A DNA stretch of 64,000 nucleotides, taken from Wenyingzhuangia fucanilytica. Lineage in GTDB: Bacteria > Bacteroidota > Bacteroidia > Flavobacteriales > Flavobacteriaceae. Below the pieces are notes generated by a model, which worked only from the letters and a program-made list of their open reading frames with translations, was not told where the DNA came from and did no database searches. Shown piece after piece: positions 31,606 through 40,850 of the stretch. Made by a program: the position numbers and the translations under genes. Each line of letters opens with the position of its first letter. Position 1 is the stretch's first letter. Location: assembly GCF_001697185.1 (NCBI RefSeq), contig NZ_CP014224.1, forward strand, positions 3,208,501 to 3,272,500, written 5' to 3'.

Positions 31606-32574
31606 ATGGCAAGAATTTTAACAGGCGTACAAAGTACTGGGACTCCTCATTTAGGAAACTTATTAGGAGCAATTATCCCTGCTATTGAAATGGCAAACAA
31701 TCCTGAAAACGAATCTTTTTTGTTTATCGCAAATTTGCATTCTTTAACGCAAATTAAAAACAGCGAAACATTAAAACAAAACACATATAGCACAGCTGCA
31801 GCTTGGTTAGCTTTTGGACTAGATATTAATAAAACGGTTTTTTACAGACAAAGTGATGTACCACAGACTACAGAGTTAACTTGGTACTTAAATTGTTTTT
31901 TTCCATATCAAAGATTAACACTTGCGCATTCTTTTAAAGACAAAGCAGATAGATTAGAAGATGTAAACGCTGGTTTATTTGATTATCCTATGCTAATGGC
32001 AGCCGATATTTTGTTATACGATGCAGAAATTGTACCTGTAGGAAAAGATCAATTGCAACATTTAGAAATTACTAGAGATGTTGCTAGTAGATTTAATCAT
32101 CAAATGGGAGAAACTTTTGTGTTACCTGAAGCTAAAATTCAGGAATCTAGCAAATACGTTCCAGGAACCAATGGTGGTAAAATGAGTAAATCTCAAGGAA
32201 ATATTATTGATATTTTTCAAGATGATAAAAAATTGCGCAAGCAAGTCATGAAAATAGAAACGGATAGTACGCCTTTAGAGGAACCTAAAAATCCTGATAC
32301 TTGTAATTTATTTGCCTTGTACAAAATATTAGCTTCAGACGAGCAAATTGCAGAAATGAGAGCTAATTACGAAGGTGGTAACTACGGATACGGACATGCT
32401 AAACAAGCTTTTTACGAATTGTTAGTTGATAAATTCTCTGAACAACGTGCCAAGTATAACTACTACATGGAAAATTTAGAAGAAGTAGATAAAGCCTTAG
32501 CTATTGGAGCAAAAAAAGCCGGAGCTATTGCTGATGAAGTTTTACAAAGAGTAAGAACCAAAATAGGTTATTAA
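31606..32574 (+). CDS. trpS: Tryptophan-tRNA ligase
   Basis: Class I aminoacyl-tRNA synthetase. MARILTGVQSTGTPHLGNLLGA holds the HIGH-type motif (TPHLGN), and GGKMSKSQGN is the KMSKS loop. PVGKDQLQHLEITRD is also typical. The ATG at 31606 with an AGAGGA ahead of it gives 322 residues, the usual size. Single gene. Confidence 0.96.
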   Translation: MARILTGVQSTGTPHLGNLLGAIIPAIEMANNPENESFLFIANLHSLTQIKNSETLKQNTYSTAAAWLAFGLDINKTVFYRQSDVPQTTELTWYLNCFFPYQRLTLAHSFKDKADRLEDVNAGLFDYPMLMAADILLYDAEIVPVGKDQLQHLEITRDVASRFNHQMGETFVLPEAKIQESSKYVPGTNGGKMSKSQGNIIDIFQDDKKLRKQVMKIETDSTPLEEPKNPDTCNLFALYKILASDEQIAEMRANYEGGNYGYGHAKQAFYELLVDKFSEQRAKYNYYMENLEEVDKALAIGAKKAGAIADEVLQRVRTKIGY

Positions 32575-32577
32575 AAC

Positions 32578-32612
32578 AAAAAAGAGCTGACATTAAAAAT
32601 CAGCTCTTTTTT
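32578..32612 (+). terminator. Terminator shared by trpS and the convergent P450 operon
   Basis: AAAAAAGAGCTGA and TCAGCTCTTTTTT form a 13-base perfect stem. A and T runs on each side let it serve both convergent units. Confidence 0.88.
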
Positions 32613-32618
32613 GTTTGT

Positions 32619-33416
32619 TTACAATTGATTAAAAAACCTCAACGTATCTTTTATATGTGTTTCCCAATATACCCATTCGTGTTTTCCTAAAAACTCTTCA
32701 TAAATATGTGGAATATTAGCTGTTTTTAATTGTTCATGCAAAACTCTGTTGTGCTCAATCAATTCATCGTCTTTTCCACAATCAAATCTAAAAGGAGGTA
32801 AAATGGTTTTATTTTTTTGCATAAAACTTATAACAGATTCGTTGTTTACATCTTCTTGCTTATAATTTTCTAAACCTTCTTCTACAAACAACTCCATTTG
32901 TGGTAAATCGGTAATAGAGCTATGTCCTGATATTCCTTTAAATATCTGTGGATACTTTGCCCCTATTCTTAACGCTCCATAGCCTCCCATAGAAAGTCCC
33001 GAAATATAAACAGGAGAGTTATTTGTTACCTCAGCTATATTCTCTTTTACCGCAGCAATTACATCCTCTGCAATCCATGCTTCAAAATTTAAAGTATTGT
33101 GTGGCAAATAAGCAGATCCATCTCCCCACAAACCATCAGAAGGCATGGCAATAATCATCGGTTTAATTTCTTTGGATTCCATCATTTTTTGAGCCGTTCT
33201 ATGTACGCCTGCCTTTTGAGACCAAATCCATGCACTACCATACACACCATGTAACAAAACAACCAAAGGGGTATTTTCTGATAATTCTACCTTAGGAACA
33301 AATAAACAAATGTCTCCTCGTCCTTTTAAGTTTGATGTTTTTACGGTAATAAACCTAAGATTATCCGATTCAAACCTTGGGTCTGATATTTCTGTTGTTC
33401 TAAATTTAGATGCCAT
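32619..33416 (-). CDS. Cytoplasmic esterase of the esterase D / S-formylglutathione hydrolase-like family
   Basis: Alpha/beta hydrolase of 265 residues. The nucleophile elbow is GLSMGGYGA (Ser142), the acid is in CGKDDEL (about Asp216), and the catalytic His is in GKHEWVYW (His246). The oxyanion region is LLHGVYG. No signal peptide is present, so it acts in the cytoplasm. It starts 2 bases after the GH2 stop and is the last gene of the P450 operon. Possible roles are hydrolysis of a formyl-thiol from the formaldehyde released by demethylation, or removal of acyl groups from the sugar; neither is shown. Confidence 0.75.
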   Translation of the reverse strand: MASKFRTTEISDPRFESDNLRFITVKTSNLKGRGDICLFVPKVELSENTPLVVLLHGVYGSAWIWSQKAGVHRTAQKMMESKEIKPMIIAMPSDGLWGDGSAYLPHNTLNFEAWIAEDVIAAVKENIAEVTNNSPVYISGLSMGGYGALRIGAKYPQIFKGISGHSSITDLPQMELFVEEGLENYKQEDVNNESVISFMQKNKTILPPFRFDCGKDDELIEHNRVLHEQLKTANIPHIYEEFLGKHEWVYWETHIKDTLRFFNQL

Positions 33417-33418
33417 TT

Positions 33419-35920
33419 TTAACGTATCTTTAGTACTGTATTTGTTGCTTGTAACTTTTGGGTTGATGTTTTTAAAATCACTTTTCCTTTTTGAGTTGAT
33501 TGCACAAAAATAACTGCCTGACCATTAAAAAACTTTCTTTTAGGCTTAGACAAATTTTGCATATTGGTAGGATCTCCATTTCCAGAAGCTAAAAATGTGG
33601 CAGCTCCACTTACTTCAATATCCATATTGTCATTAAAATGAGGACATAAATTTCCATTTTTATCTACCACAGAAACTACATATACCCCTACTTCTCCTTC
33701 TTTAATGGTTTTTATTTCTGGCTCAATAACAATATGATCTGGAGCCCCTGCTGTAACTCTTTTTACCTCTGCTACCTTTTTATTTCTCTTGTTATAAGCC
33801 ACAATTTTTACTTCTCCAGGCTCATATATCACATCGTCCCAAACAATAGCATAAGCTTTTAATAAATCCCAATTTCCACCACCTGATGCTGGAACATCAA
33901 TAGTATTGCTTTCAAAGCTTAATTCTTTTAACGGTTTTTTAGTTCTAATCCCATAACTTTTTCCGTTTACAAACAATTCTGCTTTTTCATAAGACGTATA
34001 ACAAACTACAGGAAATGATTTTACTTTTAATGCCGGCCATGTCCAATGCGGGAAAAAGTGAAGTACGTCTTTGTCTTTTCTCCATTGTGTTTGATATAAA
34101 TAGTATTTATCTTTTTCCAAACCAACAAAATCAACAGGAGCAAAATAAGAACTTCTTGATTTTGCATTGTGATAAGGTGATGGCTCTCCTAAATAATCAT
34201 AACCTGTCCAAACAAACTCTCCATAAACCGTTTTGTTTTTTTCTTGTGCTGCAAATTCTTTAAATGGAGGATATCCCCAAGGTACATTAGTGGTTTCAAA
34301 ATTTCCTGGATCTCCATCAGCGTATACATGTGTATGTAAAGAGTTTCCTCTCTTATTTTTTAAAGTATCAAAAACAACAGGAAACTTATAGCTATTACGA
34401 ACACTTACAGAACCTCCTGTTTCACTAGCATAAAACTTTAAGTTTGGATATTTTTTACGAATAGCCCCATAAATCCCAGGCTTATAATTAAAAGCAGCTA
34501 CATCTACCACTTCTGCCATACCACTTTCTAAAGCTCCTTTAGATAAATTAAACCCTGCTGTGGTAGCTCTGGTAGTGTCTACAGATTTAACAATGTCGTG
34601 CAAATATTTGGTGATATGATTAGGATCATGGTGATATTGCTCCATAATTTCATTTCCTATACTCCACATAATTACACTTGGATGATTTCTATCTCTTAAA
34701 ATCATGTCTGTTAAATCAGTTTTTGCCCACTTGTCAAAATGTGTTGCATAACCATTTGTAACTTTTCCTATTTGCCACTCATCAAAAGCTTCGTCAATAG
34801 CTAATAAACCTAAAGAATCACAAATTTCTAGAGCTTCTGGTGCTGGTGGGTTATGAGAAAAACGAATAGCATTTACCCCCATTTCTTTCATTTTTAACAT
34901 TTGTCTTAAAAACAATTCTTTATGAAATGCTGCTCCAGTAGGTCCTAAATCGTGATGCATGTTTACTCCTTGGAATTTTATTTTTTTATCATTTAAATAA
35001 AATCCATCTACTTCAAAACGTATATTTCTAATTCCAAAAGTGGTTACATACGTGTCAATTTCTTTTTTTCCTTGTAAAATAGTCGTTTTAAGTTGATACA
35101 AATTTGGGTGTTCTAAACTCCACAAATCGGGTCTAGAAATTTTAAACTCCTCGTTTAACAAAGTATTTCCCTGGATATTAACTTGTTTTTCTGTGGAGCT
35201 AACTTCTTTCCCTTTTGCATTAAAAATTTGATTTTTAACCGTATAATCTCCATTTCCTAACAACTCTAAATTCAACTTTGCAATGGCTTTTCTTTTAGTA
35301 ATTACTGGAGTTGTTACAAAAGTTCCCCAAGTTTTTACATGTGTTTTATTGGTTTTAATTACCGATACTTTTCTGTACAAACCTGCTCCGGGATACCAAC
35401 GTGATTGACTGTTAAAATTCTCTAACCTTACTGCAATACTATTATTTCCTTCTTTTAAAAACGGTGTAATATCAAAATAAAAAGAAATGTATCCAAAAGG
35501 TCTTTCGCCAACATATTGCTCGTTTACATAAACTTTTGCATTACTCATGGCTCCATCAAAAAGTAATTGAACCTTTTCTTTTAACGCTGCTGATGACATT
35601 TGATAATGAGTTCTATACCACCCAATACCCACATACGGCAAAGCTCCACTTCTACCTGCTCTGTATTTTGGTTTAGATTCTCCATCTTGCACCACCATGG
35701 TTAATTGCAAATCATTGGCAAAATCAAAATCTCCTTTAACCGCCCAATCGTGTGGTATGGTTACTTGCTCCCAATCTGCATCATCAAAATTTTCTTGAAA
35801 AGCAGCTCCATAATCATATTGAGAAAACTTCCAATTTTTTAACAATTCTACTGTTCTACTTTGAGCCATCACAATATTAATAGAACAAATAAGTATAAAA
35901 ATGGTTGTATATTTTTTCAT
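33419..35920 (-). CDS. Glycoside hydrolase family 2 (beta-galactosidase-type)
   Basis: An 833-residue enzyme with an N-terminal signal peptide (SINIVMAQS). Sugar-binding jelly roll (about 25-190), Ig-like domain, TIM barrel (about 300-600), then C-terminal domains of the DUF4982 type. The acid/base is Glu424 in WSIGNEIME and the nucleophile Glu500 in FYASETGG, so the active site is intact. Retaining exo-acting beta-galactosidase or related activity is expected. Its place in the P450 demethylase operon suggests it releases galactose or 6-O-methylgalactose from red-algal galactan oligosaccharides (inference). Confidence 0.85.
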   Translation of the reverse strand: MKKYTTIFILICSINIVMAQSRTVELLKNWKFSQYDYGAAFQENFDDADWEQVTIPHDWAVKGDFDFANDLQLTMVVQDGESKPKYRAGRSGALPYVGIGWYRTHYQMSSAALKEKVQLLFDGAMSNAKVYVNEQYVGERPFGYISFYFDITPFLKEGNNSIAVRLENFNSQSRWYPGAGLYRKVSVIKTNKTHVKTWGTFVTTPVITKRKAIAKLNLELLGNGDYTVKNQIFNAKGKEVSSTEKQVNIQGNTLLNEEFKISRPDLWSLEHPNLYQLKTTILQGKKEIDTYVTTFGIRNIRFEVDGFYLNDKKIKFQGVNMHHDLGPTGAAFHKELFLRQMLKMKEMGVNAIRFSHNPPAPEALEICDSLGLLAIDEAFDEWQIGKVTNGYATHFDKWAKTDLTDMILRDRNHPSVIMWSIGNEIMEQYHHDPNHITKYLHDIVKSVDTTRATTAGFNLSKGALESGMAEVVDVAAFNYKPGIYGAIRKKYPNLKFYASETGGSVSVRNSYKFPVVFDTLKNKRGNSLHTHVYADGDPGNFETTNVPWGYPPFKEFAAQEKNKTVYGEFVWTGYDYLGEPSPYHNAKSRSSYFAPVDFVGLEKDKYYLYQTQWRKDKDVLHFFPHWTWPALKVKSFPVVCYTSYEKAELFVNGKSYGIRTKKPLKELSFESNTIDVPASGGGNWDLLKAYAIVWDDVIYEPGEVKIVAYNKRNKKVAEVKRVTAGAPDHIVIEPEIKTIKEGEVGVYVVSVVDKNGNLCPHFNDNMDIEVSGAATFLASGNGDPTNMQNLSKPKRKFFNGQAVIFVQSTQKGKVILKTSTQKLQATNTVLKIR

Positions 35921-35984
35921 GAATTAGGATTTCAAAATTTATTATTTTTTAAGATCTACAGCGTATATAGTAGTTGGCTTCCTT

Positions 35985-37109
35985 TTAATTAAAAGTAATC
36001 ACCCCTTTTGCATTCTTACCACTTAACATATCATCAAAAGCTTGTTGTAAATTATCTAGTGTATAAGTGTTGGTAATCATTTCGTCTAACATCAAATCTC
36101 CTTTGTCATACAATGCCTCTAGTTTAGGAAAATCTACCTCTGGCCTAGCAGCTCCATACAAAGGATTGATGTATTTTTTATCCCACTCAAACAAACGCAT
36201 GTCTACGGTAATTTCTTCTTCAATACCACTTACCTGAACGGCAGTTCCTGCATTTCGTATCATGGCCAAAGGAGCAACTCCTAAAGCAGGTACAGCAGTA
36301 CATTCAAAAGCAAAATCGGCACCTCTTCCATCGGTCATTGCTTTTACAATTTCGGCAGCTTGCATCAAACCTTTGTCATTTTTATCAGCTAAAATCACAT
36401 CCGTAGCACCAAAATCTTGAGCCATTTTTAATCGATTTTCATTGATGTCTATGGCTATAATTTTGGCAGCACCAGATATTCTAGCAGCCTGAATAACGTT
36501 TAAACCAACACCACCAGTTCCCAATACCACTACCGAACTACCCAGAGTTACGTTAGCTGTATTAAAAACAGATCCACAACCAGTCATCACTCCACAACAA
36601 ACAATAGAGGCAGACTCAAAAGATAGTTTTTCACTACGTTTTTTTACTACTGCTGATGAACGAACCAAAGTATATTCTGATAAAGTTCCAATATTAAAAG
36701 AGCGCTCAATAGGCTTTTCGTTCCACGTAGTTCCTTCTATGGCCACATGTCCGCCAGGTAATTTACCAGCATGGTTGGCAATTACAGGAGAATTGCTTTC
36801 ACAAATATGTTGATTTCCCTCTTGACATTGAAAACAAGTGTAACAAGGCGTTGCCCAGTTTAAAATTACTTCATCACCAATCTTTACATTTTCTACATCT
36901 TCACCAATTGCCTCAACAATTCCAGCTCCTTCATGACCTAAAACAATTGGCATTCCCCAAGTTAACGAATCGTGATCTGTATGACACAAACCAGAAGCTT
37001 TCATTTTTACTAAAACCTCATCTTTTTTAGGTTGTTGTACCTTAATATTTTCAATTGTAAATTTTCCGTCACCAATAGAAATGGCTGCTTTACATTCAAT
37101 TACGCTCAT
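35985..37109 (-). CDS. Zinc-dependent alcohol dehydrogenase of the methylgalactose-demethylation cluster
   Basis: Medium-chain dehydrogenase of 374 residues. The catalytic zinc ligands are in ASGLCHTDHDS and VLGHEGAG. The structural zinc loop is CYTCFQCQEGNQHIC. The Rossmann motif is GTGGVGLNVIQAA. A homologue beside the P450 system is conserved in porphyran-using Flavobacteriia; published work on Zobellia found it is needed for growth on 6-O-methylgalactose but is not a formaldehyde detoxifier. It lies 15 bases after the ferredoxin reductase gene. Confidence 0.85.
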   Translation of the reverse strand: MSVIECKAAISIGDGKFTIENIKVQQPKKDEVLVKMKASGLCHTDHDSLTWGMPIVLGHEGAGIVEAIGEDVENVKIGDEVILNWATPCYTCFQCQEGNQHICESNSPVIANHAGKLPGGHVAIEGTTWNEKPIERSFNIGTLSEYTLVRSSAVVKKRSEKLSFESASIVCCGVMTGCGSVFNTANVTLGSSVVVLGTGGVGLNVIQAARISGAAKIIAIDINENRLKMAQDFGATDVILADKNDKGLMQAAEIVKAMTDGRGADFAFECTAVPALGVAPLAMIRNAGTAVQVSGIEEEITVDMRLFEWDKKYINPLYGAARPEVDFPKLEALYDKGDLMLDEMITNTYTLDNLQQAFDDMLSGKNAKGVITFN

Positions 37110-37124
37110 CTAACTTAATTTTTA

Positions 37125-38357
37125 CTAGTTCACTACTATAGACTTTAAATCTATTTCTGGATTGACTAATTTATCTTTATCTATAATTGTTTTTGTTTTG
37201 ATGTATTTGGTAGCAAACACATATGCTTTTGCATTGTTAACAGCATCTACCGCCAACAATTGTTCTCCTTTAAAATACCAAATAGAAAACTTTTTATCTT
37301 CTTCTTTTCTTACTACGGTATTATCAAAACCTTGCGACAATCCTACAATTTGCAATTTCACATCATATTGATCGGACCAAAACCAAGGTATGGCATTATA
37401 AACCGTTGGTTTTTCACAAATATTTGCAGCAGCTACTTTTGCTTGATCTACGGCATTTTGAACAGATTCTAATCGCACATAAGTATTATACATTGTGTTA
37501 TAGTGATAACTACAATCTCCAATAGCATAGATTCCTTCTTCTGATGTTTTTGCAGTGGTGTCAACTTCAATTCCATTGTTAATGGTCAACCCAATTTCAG
37601 AAGCCAATTCTGTATTTACTTTTATTCCTACCCCAACAATAACCATATCTGCTTTGTAGGTTGAACCATCGGAACAAACAACAGTATTTTGATGGTTCTC
37701 TGTTTTAATTTCTGTAACTCCTTTGTTTACACAAATTTCAACATTATTGGCTTGATGAAGTTTGGTGAAAAATTCTGATAAATAAGGAGTTGTTACACGT
37801 GCTAAAACTCTTTCTTCTCGCTCCAAAACAGTAACATCAGCTCCCAATTTTTTTAATGATGCAGCAGTTTCTAAACCAATATATCCACCTCCAATTACCA
37901 CAATTTTCTTTTCTTGACTGGCATGAAAAGCTTGGCGAATGTTAGCTACATCATTGGCATTACGTAGGGTAAAAATATTATTAGCCTCATTAATTCCTTT
38001 AATTGGAGGCACAAAAGCCCTAGCTCCTGTGGCAAATACCAATACATCATAATTTTGAGAAGTTCCATCCTCTAAAACCAATACTTTGTTTTCTTTATCA
38101 ACACGAGCAACTCCTAGTCCTAATGCCAAAGAAATATTTTCTTTCTCGTAACTTTCAATAGGTTTTAAAAAATTATTCTGAATACTATCTTCTAGCTCTA
38201 AATATTTTTTAGATAAGGGCGGTCTATGGTAAGGAGTTGTGTTGTCTTTATCAAACAAAATAATATCCCCTTGCCAACCTTCTTTACGCAAAGAAAACGC
38301 AAAATTTACTCCAGCATGGCTCGCGCCAATAACAACGCATATTTTGGTGTTTGACAT
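37125..38357 (-). CDS. FAD-dependent ferredoxin reductase (P450 redox partner)
   Basis: Putidaredoxin-reductase type of 410 residues. The FAD-binding motif is VVIGASHAGVNFA near the N-terminus, the NAD(P)H motif is VVIGGGYIGLETAASL (about 150), and the second FAD contact is EGIYAIGDCSYH. It passes electrons from NAD(P)H to the small ferredoxin encoded 11 bases upstream. Its position between ferredoxin and dehydrogenase genes fits the three-component class I P450 layout. Confidence 0.92.
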   Translation of the reverse strand: MSNTKICVVIGASHAGVNFAFSLRKEGWQGDIILFDKDNTTPYHRPPLSKKYLELEDSIQNNFLKPIESYEKENISLALGLGVARVDKENKVLVLEDGTSQNYDVLVFATGARAFVPPIKGINEANNIFTLRNANDVANIRQAFHASQEKKIVVIGGGYIGLETAASLKKLGADVTVLEREERVLARVTTPYLSEFFTKLHQANNVEICVNKGVTEIKTENHQNTVVCSDGSTYKADMVIVGVGIKVNTELASEIGLTINNGIEVDTTAKTSEEGIYAIGDCSYHYNTMYNTYVRLESVQNAVDQAKVAAANICEKPTVYNAIPWFWSDQYDVKLQIVGLSQGFDNTVVRKEEDKKFSIWYFKGEQLLAVDAVNNAKAYVFATKYIKTKTIIDKDKLVNPEIDLKSIVVN

Positions 38358-38368
38358 GATTAAATTAA

Positions 38369-38677
38369 TTATTTAGCAACGGTTAATTCTACTCCATCAA
38401 TGGCTTCAGAAATTTCTATTTGACAACACAAACGACTAAATTCATTTGCATCATCTGCTAGTTCTAACATATCTGTTTCTATTTCGCTAGCTACCCCTAC
38501 TTTTTCCATGTCTGATGCTGCTACAAATACGTGACAAGTAGCACAAGAACATACACCTCCACAATCTCCATCAATTCCACTTACCCCATTGTTTACTGCT
38601 AATTGCATTACATTTCCAGAAGTTCCTTCTAAAGTTACTTTCTCATTATCGCTAGTAATAAAAGTTATTTTTGCCAT
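38369..38677 (-). CDS. [2Fe-2S] ferredoxin (P450 redox partner)
   Basis: Putidaredoxin/adrenodoxin-type ferredoxin of 102 residues. The cluster cysteines are in DCGGVCSCATCHVF (C-x5-C-x2-C), with the fourth in SRLCCQI. It shuttles single electrons from the reductase to the P450. The P450 gene ends 30 bases upstream and the reductase begins 11 bases downstream. Confidence 0.94.
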   Translation of the reverse strand: MAKITFITSDNEKVTLEGTSGNVMQLAVNNGVSGIDGDCGGVCSCATCHVFVAASDMEKVGVASEIETDMLELADDANEFSRLCCQIEISEAIDGVELTVAK

Positions 38678-38707
38678 AATTTTTCTTTTATAATATTCTT
38701 GTTAGTT

Positions 38708-39871
38708 TTAGTATTTATTAAATTTTACAGTGATTGAATTGTATCCTACTTTTCGGTTAAATTCACCCAATTCTTCAATATTTTCATCTGTATCTACAAT
38801 ATCAATTGTAGCCACTTTGTTCGCTAAAATTTCTAATAAAGTTCTCATAATCTGACGTGCATGAGTAGCTCCCAAACAATTATGTGTTCCAAATCCAAAA
38901 CTTACATGTGGATTCATTTTTCTGTTAAAATCTACTTCGTTTGGATTTTCAAAAACAGTTGCGTCTCTGTTTGCAGATGCCCAACATAAAGAAACTCTTG
39001 TATTTGCTTTTACAGCATGTTCGCAAACCTGAGTATCTTCTGTAACCACTCTACCCATATGTGTTAATGGAGCAAAATAACGAATCAACTCTTCTACAGC
39101 ATTGTTAATCATTTCTGGATTTTCTTTAATGGCCTGTAAAGATTTAGGATGCTCTGCAAAATAAGCGATTGAGTTTGTTAACGCATTGATAACAGTATCT
39201 CTACCTCCTGCAAAAGTTAAAATCATGATTCCTTTTACCTCTTCGTGTGTTAATTTGTTACCATTAACTTCAGAATTTAGTAGTACCGAATACAAGTCTT
39301 CTCCTGGATTTTTAGAAGCTTCTATTATTTTTTCATCAATGTAATTGTATAAAACATTGGCTTTGTCTGCATCTAAACTTTCCCCCTCGCTTCTAAACAC
39401 ATGTGTTCCCCAAGAAATCCACGTTTCTGATTCTGAAAAAGGAGTATTTAATAATAAGGTTAAAGCTCTAGACTGCAGTTTTAAAGAAAAATCTCTTACT
39501 ACCTCAACTTCGTCTTTATTTAAAACTTCATTGACCAGAGTTTCTATTTGAGCTGCTAATTTTGCTTGATATTCTTCTCCATTTGGTCTTTTAAACCATC
39601 CATCTAACAAATTTCTAAACTCTTTGTGTAATGGAGGATCTACCTCAAAAGGAATTTGTCTTGTATCTCTAATTGCTACTTCTGATGGAATCACAATACG
39701 TCCAACTTCATCACCTCCTGACTGAAAGGTTTTCCAGTTATGAGCTGTTTTTCTAACATCCTTATGTCTTAATAAAATAGTAACAGGATCGTTTTGATCA
39801 TCCATGTTTCCATATCCTTTTTCTACTCTCGCTTTTTCAAACGGATCTGAAATTTTACTTTTTTCCATCAT
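38708..39871 (-). CDS. Cytochrome P450 monooxygenase, likely 6-O-methyl-D-galactose demethylase
   Basis: Soluble bacterial P450 of 387 residues. The heme ligand is Cys332 in FGFGTHNCLGATHAR, the I-helix motif is TFAGGRDTVINA and the K-helix ExxR is in EELIRYF. With ferredoxin, reductase and alcohol dehydrogenase genes in the same operon it matches the CYP236A system of Formosa agariphila and Zobellia, which oxidises the methyl ether of 6-O-methyl-D-galactose to galactose and formaldehyde. The family name is from context and memory; substrate is inferred. It is the first gene of the operon. Confidence 0.82.
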   Translation of the reverse strand: MMEKSKISDPFEKARVEKGYGNMDDQNDPVTILLRHKDVRKTAHNWKTFQSGGDEVGRIVIPSEVAIRDTRQIPFEVDPPLHKEFRNLLDGWFKRPNGEEYQAKLAAQIETLVNEVLNKDEVEVVRDFSLKLQSRALTLLLNTPFSESETWISWGTHVFRSEGESLDADKANVLYNYIDEKIIEASKNPGEDLYSVLLNSEVNGNKLTHEEVKGIMILTFAGGRDTVINALTNSIAYFAEHPKSLQAIKENPEMINNAVEELIRYFAPLTHMGRVVTEDTQVCEHAVKANTRVSLCWASANRDATVFENPNEVDFNRKMNPHVSFGFGTHNCLGATHARQIMRTLLEILANKVATIDIVDTDENIEELGEFNRKVGYNSITVKFNKY

Positions 39872-39998: not shown

Positions 39999-40850
39999 TT
40001 GAAAGCCATAAAAGAACAGATAAATCAACCATTTGATAGTTCATTCACCATTAATGAATTTGAACAACCTTATTTTGATTCCCCTTGGCATTTCCATACA
40101 GAGTATGAACTTACCTACATAAACAAGGGCTACGGAACTAGATTTGTGGGTACAAATTCAGAATTATTTAAAGAAGGAGATTTGGTTTTAATAGGCTCTT
40201 TGGTTCCTCATTATTGGAGATGTGATAATGATTTTTACCATCAAGAAAATTTAAAATCTCACAGTATTGTTATTCAATTTAAACCTGAACTATTTTTTAA
40301 CAATCCGCTGCCAGAAATGAAGAACATTCATTTACTGCTTAAAAAATCGGCAAGTGGCATACAGTTTAAAAAAAGCAAAAAATATAAAGATGATTTTTTT
40401 GAATTGTTACAAAAAGGAGGATTAGAACAATTGTTTTTATTGTACAAATTGTTAGACAAACTAAGCTTAGATAAAAATCAGAAAACCCTTTCTATTACAC
40501 AAGATTCACAGTTATATCAGGCAAAAGACAGTAAAATATTTCAGGAAGTTATTAATTATATTTTCGCAAATCTGAACAATGATATTTCTTTAGAAACTAT
40601 TTCTAATAAAGTGCATATGTCTACCCCTGCATTTTGTAGGTATTTTAAAAGTAGAACTAAAAAAACATTTACTGAATATGTAAATAATCTTAGGGTTATT
40701 CAAGCAGCAAAATTATTAATAGAAACTGACTTGAGTATTTCTCAAATTTGTTTTGATTGTGGCTACAATAGCTTAAGCTATTTTAATAGACAATTTAAAA
40801 AATATAAAAAAATGGGGCCAAAAGAGTATAAAAAACTCTATAAAGAATAA
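39999..40850 (+). CDS. AraC-family transcriptional regulator
   Basis: N-terminal cupin (about 20-110; FDSPWHFHTEYELTYINKGYGTRFVG, VPHYWRCD) and C-terminal double HTH (about 185-283; ISLETISNKVHMSTPAFCRYFK, ISQICFDCGYNSLSYFNRQFKKY). The start is a TTG (MKAIKEQINQPFDSSF), consistent with relatives. It is divergent from the P450 operon and has its own terminator, so it most likely senses a sugar such as methylgalactose and activates that operon (inference). Confidence 0.88.
   Translation: MKAIKEQINQPFDSSFTINEFEQPYFDSPWHFHTEYELTYINKGYGTRFVGTNSELFKEGDLVLIGSLVPHYWRCDNDFYHQENLKSHSIVIQFKPELFFNNPLPEMKNIHLLLKKSASGIQFKKSKKYKDDFFELLQKGGLEQLFLLYKLLDKLSLDKNQKTLSITQDSQLYQAKDSKIFQEVINYIFANLNNDISLETISNKVHMSTPAFCRYFKSRTKKTFTEYVNNLRVIQAAKLLIETDLSISQICFDCGYNSLSYFNRQFKKYKKMGPKEYKKLYKE

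Follow-up and report, generated by a model that had tools for sequence, protein, structure and literature searches.

A predicted 6-O-methyl-D-galactose demethylation operon as the very probable D-galactose end of a genomically split porphyran pathway in Wenyingzhuangia fucanilytica

We found a six-gene operon in Wenyingzhuangia fucanilytica CZ1127 that very probably forms the D-galactose end of a split porphyran pathway, possibly serving methylated agar as well. We regard it as one half of a pathway divided across the genome, because the same chromosome holds a porphyran-type locus (1.69-1.71 Mb) at a distance of 1.5 Mb, orthologues from that locus adjoin the P450 cluster in other genomes, and P450 and PorB-like genes co-occur. 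The operon was examined within a window of 64,000 nucleotides (genome positions 3208501-3272500); the genome comprises 3,427,057 bases in one contig and is taken as that of strain CZ1127. The endo-fucanase FunA of this strain has been placed at 2492018-2493244 on the complementary strand, with 408 residues (PMC7401878), and a 408-codon ORF on the minus strand occupies these positions and includes the sequences of the two FunA primers given in PMC10778895.

The operon consists of six minus-strand ORFs at window positions 32619-39871, with gaps of 2, 64, 15, 11 and 30 bases in coordinate order, transcribed as P450, 2Fe-2S ferredoxin, ferredoxin reductase, zinc alcohol dehydrogenase, GH2 and esterase. 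All six are full length and carry the expected active-site motifs; together with the divergent regulator gene they match the Pfam families p450, Fer2, Pyr_redox_2 plus Reductase_C, ADH_N/ADH_zinc_N, the GH2 domains, Esterase and HTH_18. ORF coordinates and Pfam matches agree with a preliminary description of this DNA, which had noted six co-directional genes with gaps of 2-64 bases, a divergent AraC gene and redox partners beside the P450. A near-perfect, bidirectional terminator-like hairpin (32573..32617; -21.5 kcal/mol on one strand and -23.6 on the other), absent from that description, is shared by the esterase gene and the flanking gene and closes the operon against the latter, which we take to be trpS from that description and from the gene's own sequence. 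This flank is kept in all seven genomes of the genus, while an aldo-keto reductase gene and then pgk follow on the other side. The housekeeping flanks (trpS, pgk) and the lack of a SusC/SusD pair, sulfatase or porphyranase within 64 kb had already been described, and the profile searches concur: neither SusD nor sulfatase, GH16 or GH86 was matched within the 64-kb window, and no free-sugar transporter is found among the operon genes. Of 30 homologous loci, nearly all keep the gene set together, a co-location far beyond chance. Its GC content (0.32-0.39) is too unremarkable to point to recent import. The P450 tree conflicts in places with those of reductase, esterase and AraC, with support too low to speak for or against horizontal transfer. 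In two loci, those of G180 (L064) and MAG 710 (L003), reductase, esterase and AraC resemble those of the window and the P450 groups elsewhere, again with low support; the P450 gene may have been swapped within the operon there.

The first gene (38708..39871, minus strand) encodes a cytochrome P450 of 387 amino acids, which its 6g5o match, tree position and motifs mark as a putative CYP236A-type 6-O-methyl-D-galactose O-demethylase. Its best solved relative is 6g5o/6g5q (631 bits, 72% identity; next PDB match 156 bits), and 6g5o is CYP236A2 of Zobellia galactanivorans. In a tree of 33 P450 sequences 6g5o is nested inside the same clade as the window P450, and no clustering with a different substrate group, which the preliminary description had named as evidence against its assignment, appears. 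The haem ligand Cys332 is intact, as had been noted, and lies in FGFGTHNCLG; the I-helix carries AGGRDT, and the acid-alcohol pair Asp225-Thr226 is invariant. Judged by these sequence features, membership of the window P450 in the 6g5o enzyme group, as a predicted CYP236A-type demethylase, is well supported. The likely electron donors follow directly: a 2Fe-2S ferredoxin as P450 electron carrier (38369..38677, minus strand; Fer2), in which Cys39, Cys45, Cys48 and Cys84 are available as cluster ligands, and an NAD(P)H:ferredoxin reductase (37125..38357, minus strand; Pyr_redox_2 and Reductase_C). In all mapped loci the ferredoxin gene adjoins the P450 gene and the reductase gene adjoins the ferredoxin gene. 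Such a P450 and its redox partners convert 6-O-methyl-galactose to galactose and formaldehyde, and a structure of the Zobellia P450 with 6-O-methyl-galactose exists; in Zobellia, P450 knockout abolishes growth on this sugar and ADH knockout strongly impairs growth (PMC10033563).

The zinc-dependent alcohol dehydrogenase (35985..37109, minus strand) is of the FoADH/ZoADH type: its best solved relatives, 8h2a and 8h2b (613 and 584 bits; next match 203), correspond to FoADH and ZoADH, respectively (PMC10033563), and its zinc ligands Cys42, His59 and Cys172 are invariant. The grouping of the P450 with 6g5o and of the dehydrogenase with FoADH/ZoADH bears out the proposal that the gene set matches the CYP236A-type 6-O-methyl-D-galactose system. 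The GH2 protein (33419..35920, minus strand; 833 amino acids), which has GH2 domains and a signal-like N-terminal sequence, is a predicted exo-beta-D-galactosidase with the motifs of acid/base E424 and nucleophile E500 present; its best solved relative is 5t98, and it scores 758 bits against the GalB model, below the cut-off of 900. The last gene (32619..33416, minus strand) encodes a predicted cytoplasmic alpha/beta-hydrolase esterase (PF00756), in which Ser142 (GLSMGG), Asp217 and His246 are invariant in 29 orthologues. Divergent from the operon stands an AraC-family gene (39999..40850, plus strand; HTH_18/HTH_AraC with weak Cupin_2), as in most P450 loci; identity is 63-75% in the five closest loci outside this genome, and its product is the probable operon activator.

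This arrangement contains the complete flavobacterial 6-O-methyl-galactose cluster core of Brott 2023, that is P450, ferredoxin, reductase, ADH and esterase. The same five-gene core is found in Z. galactanivorans and Formosa agariphila, whose clusters are also the source of the best PDB matches for the window P450 and ADH. In F. agariphila and Algibacter lectus, GH2 and GH16 have been reported between ADH and esterase, whereas the window has GH2 in this place. The window operon differs from the Zobellia and Formosa clusters in its position between housekeeping genes, with neither SusC/D nor sulfatase or GH16 nearby, and in that 1.5 Mb of the chromosome separates it from the strain's depolymerase and transport genes. 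CAZymes, sulfatases and SusC/D are frequent but not universal companions of these clusters and were not taken as defining: the window has GH2 only, and several other loci likewise have none of them within 20 kb. The porphyran locus of Bacteroides plebeius deploys endo-porphyranase, sulfatase, GH29 and GH2 in the same order on methylated porphyran, but this anaerobe has no P450 and stops at 6-O-methyl-galactose (PMC12316285).

The rest of the pathway appears to be encoded elsewhere on the chromosome. A search for porphyranases in the whole genome, as the preliminary description had suggested, yielded a PorB orthologue (1701259-1702191; 523 bits to 3juu, Zobellia porphyranase B), further GH16 genes and two GH86 genes. 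Beside the PorB orthologue lie a second PorB-like GH16 gene, a third GH16 gene (1702173-1703120), SusC/SusD, two sulfatases, GH29 and sugar-acid catabolism genes. The third GH16, a candidate endo-6-O-methyl-beta-porphyranase (GH16_14), carries VSGFW, with glycine two residues before the FW-tryptophan; from this tryptophan to the ExDxxE glutamate it is 11 residues. This matches the spacing of Gly132, Trp134 and Glu145 in BpGH16C, where the methyl pocket has glycine instead of Ser/Thr. Threonine occupies this position in PorB and the second PorB-like gene, and the pocket glycine has been tied to 6-O-methyl tolerance in porphyranases (PMC12316285). The same study names AXE80_06940 of W. fucanilytica an endo-6-O-methyl-porphyranase, which, from the locus-tag spacing to AXE80_07365 (primer near 1.812 Mb), should be the GH16 at 1702173-1703120; two porphyranases of W. 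fucanilytica have been characterized before. By the GH29 gene, at 1705034-1712336, lie genes for a zinc dehydrogenase, altronate-dehydratase-like and mannitol-dehydrogenase-like proteins, an amidohydrolase, an SDR and an MFS protein, for which L-galactose catabolism linked to porphyran is a plausible role. A large, sulfatase-rich locus at 2500000-2546000 with three GH16 genes, GH127, 2-keto-3-deoxy-galactonokinase and SusC/D was rejected as a porphyran locus: its GH16s (2.50-2.55 Mb) reach at most 55 bits to PorA/PorB, have 9ijc as best solved relative and show Ala or Ser where the methyl-tolerant type has its pocket glycine. Across the genome there are 20 SusD and 84 sulfatase matches; one SusD-family match (2021543-2022490) has an internal TAA stop and is possibly a broken gene.

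In other genomes, the two halves are found side by side. In G134, SusC and SusD follow the P450 cluster and share 80 and 81% identity with their counterparts at 1.69 Mb; orthologues of the GH16b (80%), the GH29 (80%) and both sulfatases (77-83%) of that locus lie around the cluster. Two sulfatases (77 and 87% identical to that locus) flank the cluster in G061, as do a sulfatase (76%) and GH29 (69%) in G002. Among 397 genomes of the family, relatives included, 26 have both a P450 of this group and a PorB-like gene, two only the P450, three only a PorB-like gene and 366 neither, with a PorB-like threshold of E <= 1e-30 that admits GH16s of about 36% identity. This co-occurrence (Fisher p = 3e-35, ignoring relatedness) involves positives in more than 20 genera and recurs within the genus (4/4 versus 0/3).

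The operon site itself varies between close relatives. In Wenyingzhuangia sp. 2_MG-2023 (G399), the nearest named relative, the operon (L002) occupies the same trpS site in the same order (P450 91%, ADH 94% identical), but includes an additional PorB-like GH16 gene with the pocket glycine, which the window lacks; at the corresponding position, the window has the 64-base gap between ADH and GH2 (35921..35984, minus strand). Of the remaining genus members, G397 has GH2 and GH16 at trpS, G398 has GH2 and other genes, G228 unrelated genes, and G383 and G400 do not have the operon there; in G397 and G398 the P450 gene (73-74% identical) is located elsewhere, with no ADH and esterase beside it. In G228, three tandem, near-identical lipoprotein-like genes (L073:7593-9275; 172-176 amino acids) replace the operon. 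Since the operon also adjoins trpS in G180, outside the genus, and contents within the genus are mixed, the site is both old and variable. The PorB-like GH16s in or beside the trpS-site operon of two Wenyingzhuangia genomes (L002:13896-14762 and L075:7617-8540) have GGGFW, with glycine in place of the PorB threonine, and are predicted from this motif to be methyl-tolerant porphyranases in G399 and G397, in G399 inside the demethylation operon. Protein queries were used for GH16, because the GH16 Pfam model at E <= 1e-8 missed the sister strain's porphyranase-like gene.

Could the methylated galactose derive mainly from agar, in which galactose can also be 6-O-methylated, rather than from porphyran? 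The two GH86 genes, at 358 and 372 kb, speak for this, and their products may act on agar, since the first is closest to the solved 'beta-agarase' 8h97 (1120 bits); moreover, agarobiose units are also methylated, and demethylation genes occur in agarose loci of aerobic bacteria (PMC12316285). Yet the neighbours that P450 clusters share across genomes are of the porphyran type (GH29, sulfatases, GH16b), and P450 presence tracks PorB-like genes, which makes a mainly agar-derived supply rather unlikely. It seems very unlikely that the P450 has a different methylated sugar, or methylated oligosaccharides still intact, as its substrate: 72% identity leaves room for an altered pocket, but 119 of about 386 alignment columns are invariant in 33/33 members, position 316 is the one site at which the window P450 deviates from a residue that all others share (Asn for Asp, near the C-terminal haem region), and its gene company is that of the characterized systems.

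From the stand-alone operon, the preliminary description had concluded that the strain may scavenge methylated galactosides released by others. The absence of SusC/D, sulfatase and porphyranase genes within 64 kb and of the sister strain's GH16 from the operon would fit a strain that takes up such galactosides and does not depolymerize porphyran itself. This is highly improbable for a chromosome that also has the PorB orthologue, porphyranase-like GH16s, two GH86 and the SusC/D and sulfatase genes counted above, in a species whose porphyranases are already characterized. The strain need not live on the leftovers of other microbes, because the rest of the pathway is in the same genome; it may still scavenge in addition to its own degradation. 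Two other genomes with the P450 cluster, G119 (L082) and G184 (L083), in which no PorB-like GH16 was found at E <= 1e-30, would be better candidates for scavenging, notwithstanding the GH29 and sulfatases that adjoin the cluster in G184. A decaying operon left behind at trpS, as its loss or reduction there in close relatives and the missing GH16 might suggest, is scarcely credible with six full-length ORFs and intact catalytic residues.

For the split porphyran pathway, which we prefer, homology suggests the following course. Enzymes encoded elsewhere would cut porphyran, SusC/D would import the oligosaccharides, and sulfate and L-galactose would be removed. The operon GH2, with its signal-like N-terminus, would then free D-galactose and 6-O-methyl-D-galactose from the non-reducing end outside the cytoplasm, and a sugar importer encoded elsewhere would bring the freed sugar into the cytoplasm. 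There, electrons would pass from NADH via reductase and ferredoxin to the P450, which would hydroxylate the O-methyl group and thereby yield D-galactose and formaldehyde, as shown for homologues. The AraC protein probably senses a sugar and switches the operon on, and the operon would be co-regulated in trans with the transport and depolymerase genes 1.5 Mb away.

The dehydrogenase passes neither class III ADH model of the thiol-dependent formaldehyde route (226 bits against a cut-off of 544 for TIGR02818, 228 against 513 for TIGR03451), and the esterase falls far below the S-formylglutathione hydrolase model TIGR02821 (35 bits, cut-off 282). A hexulose-6-phosphate synthase of the RuMP route was not found in the genome; the single match (34 bits, cut-off 200) looks like a ribulose-phosphate 3-epimerase by sequence and neighbours. 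In the Zobellia study, the dehydrogenase did not oxidize formaldehyde with the thiols tested (PMC10033563). Only tentatively can dehydrogenase and esterase be proposed as a formaldehyde-disposal step that would act on the formaldehyde adduct of a carrier. With no RuMP synthase found, W. fucanilytica is a useful place to test their role, because the RuMP route, which Zobellia induces, would not hide it.

The operon is a well-identified representative of a known system, for which the biochemical reading of the preliminary description stands and its scavenging inference does not. The new details are the variability of the trpS site within the genus, the glycine-type porphyranase of the sister operon and the failure to find the RuMP hexulose-phosphate synthase. 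Our results add an example with genetically separated halves, from a strain that is the source of well-studied polysaccharide enzymes. With two pathway halves 1.5 Mb apart, the local neighbourhood of a gene cluster does not reveal the capacity of the strain. 6-O-methyl-galactose reportedly accounts for up to 28% of porphyran (PMC10033563), and demethylation therefore decides which share of this algal carbon is usable.
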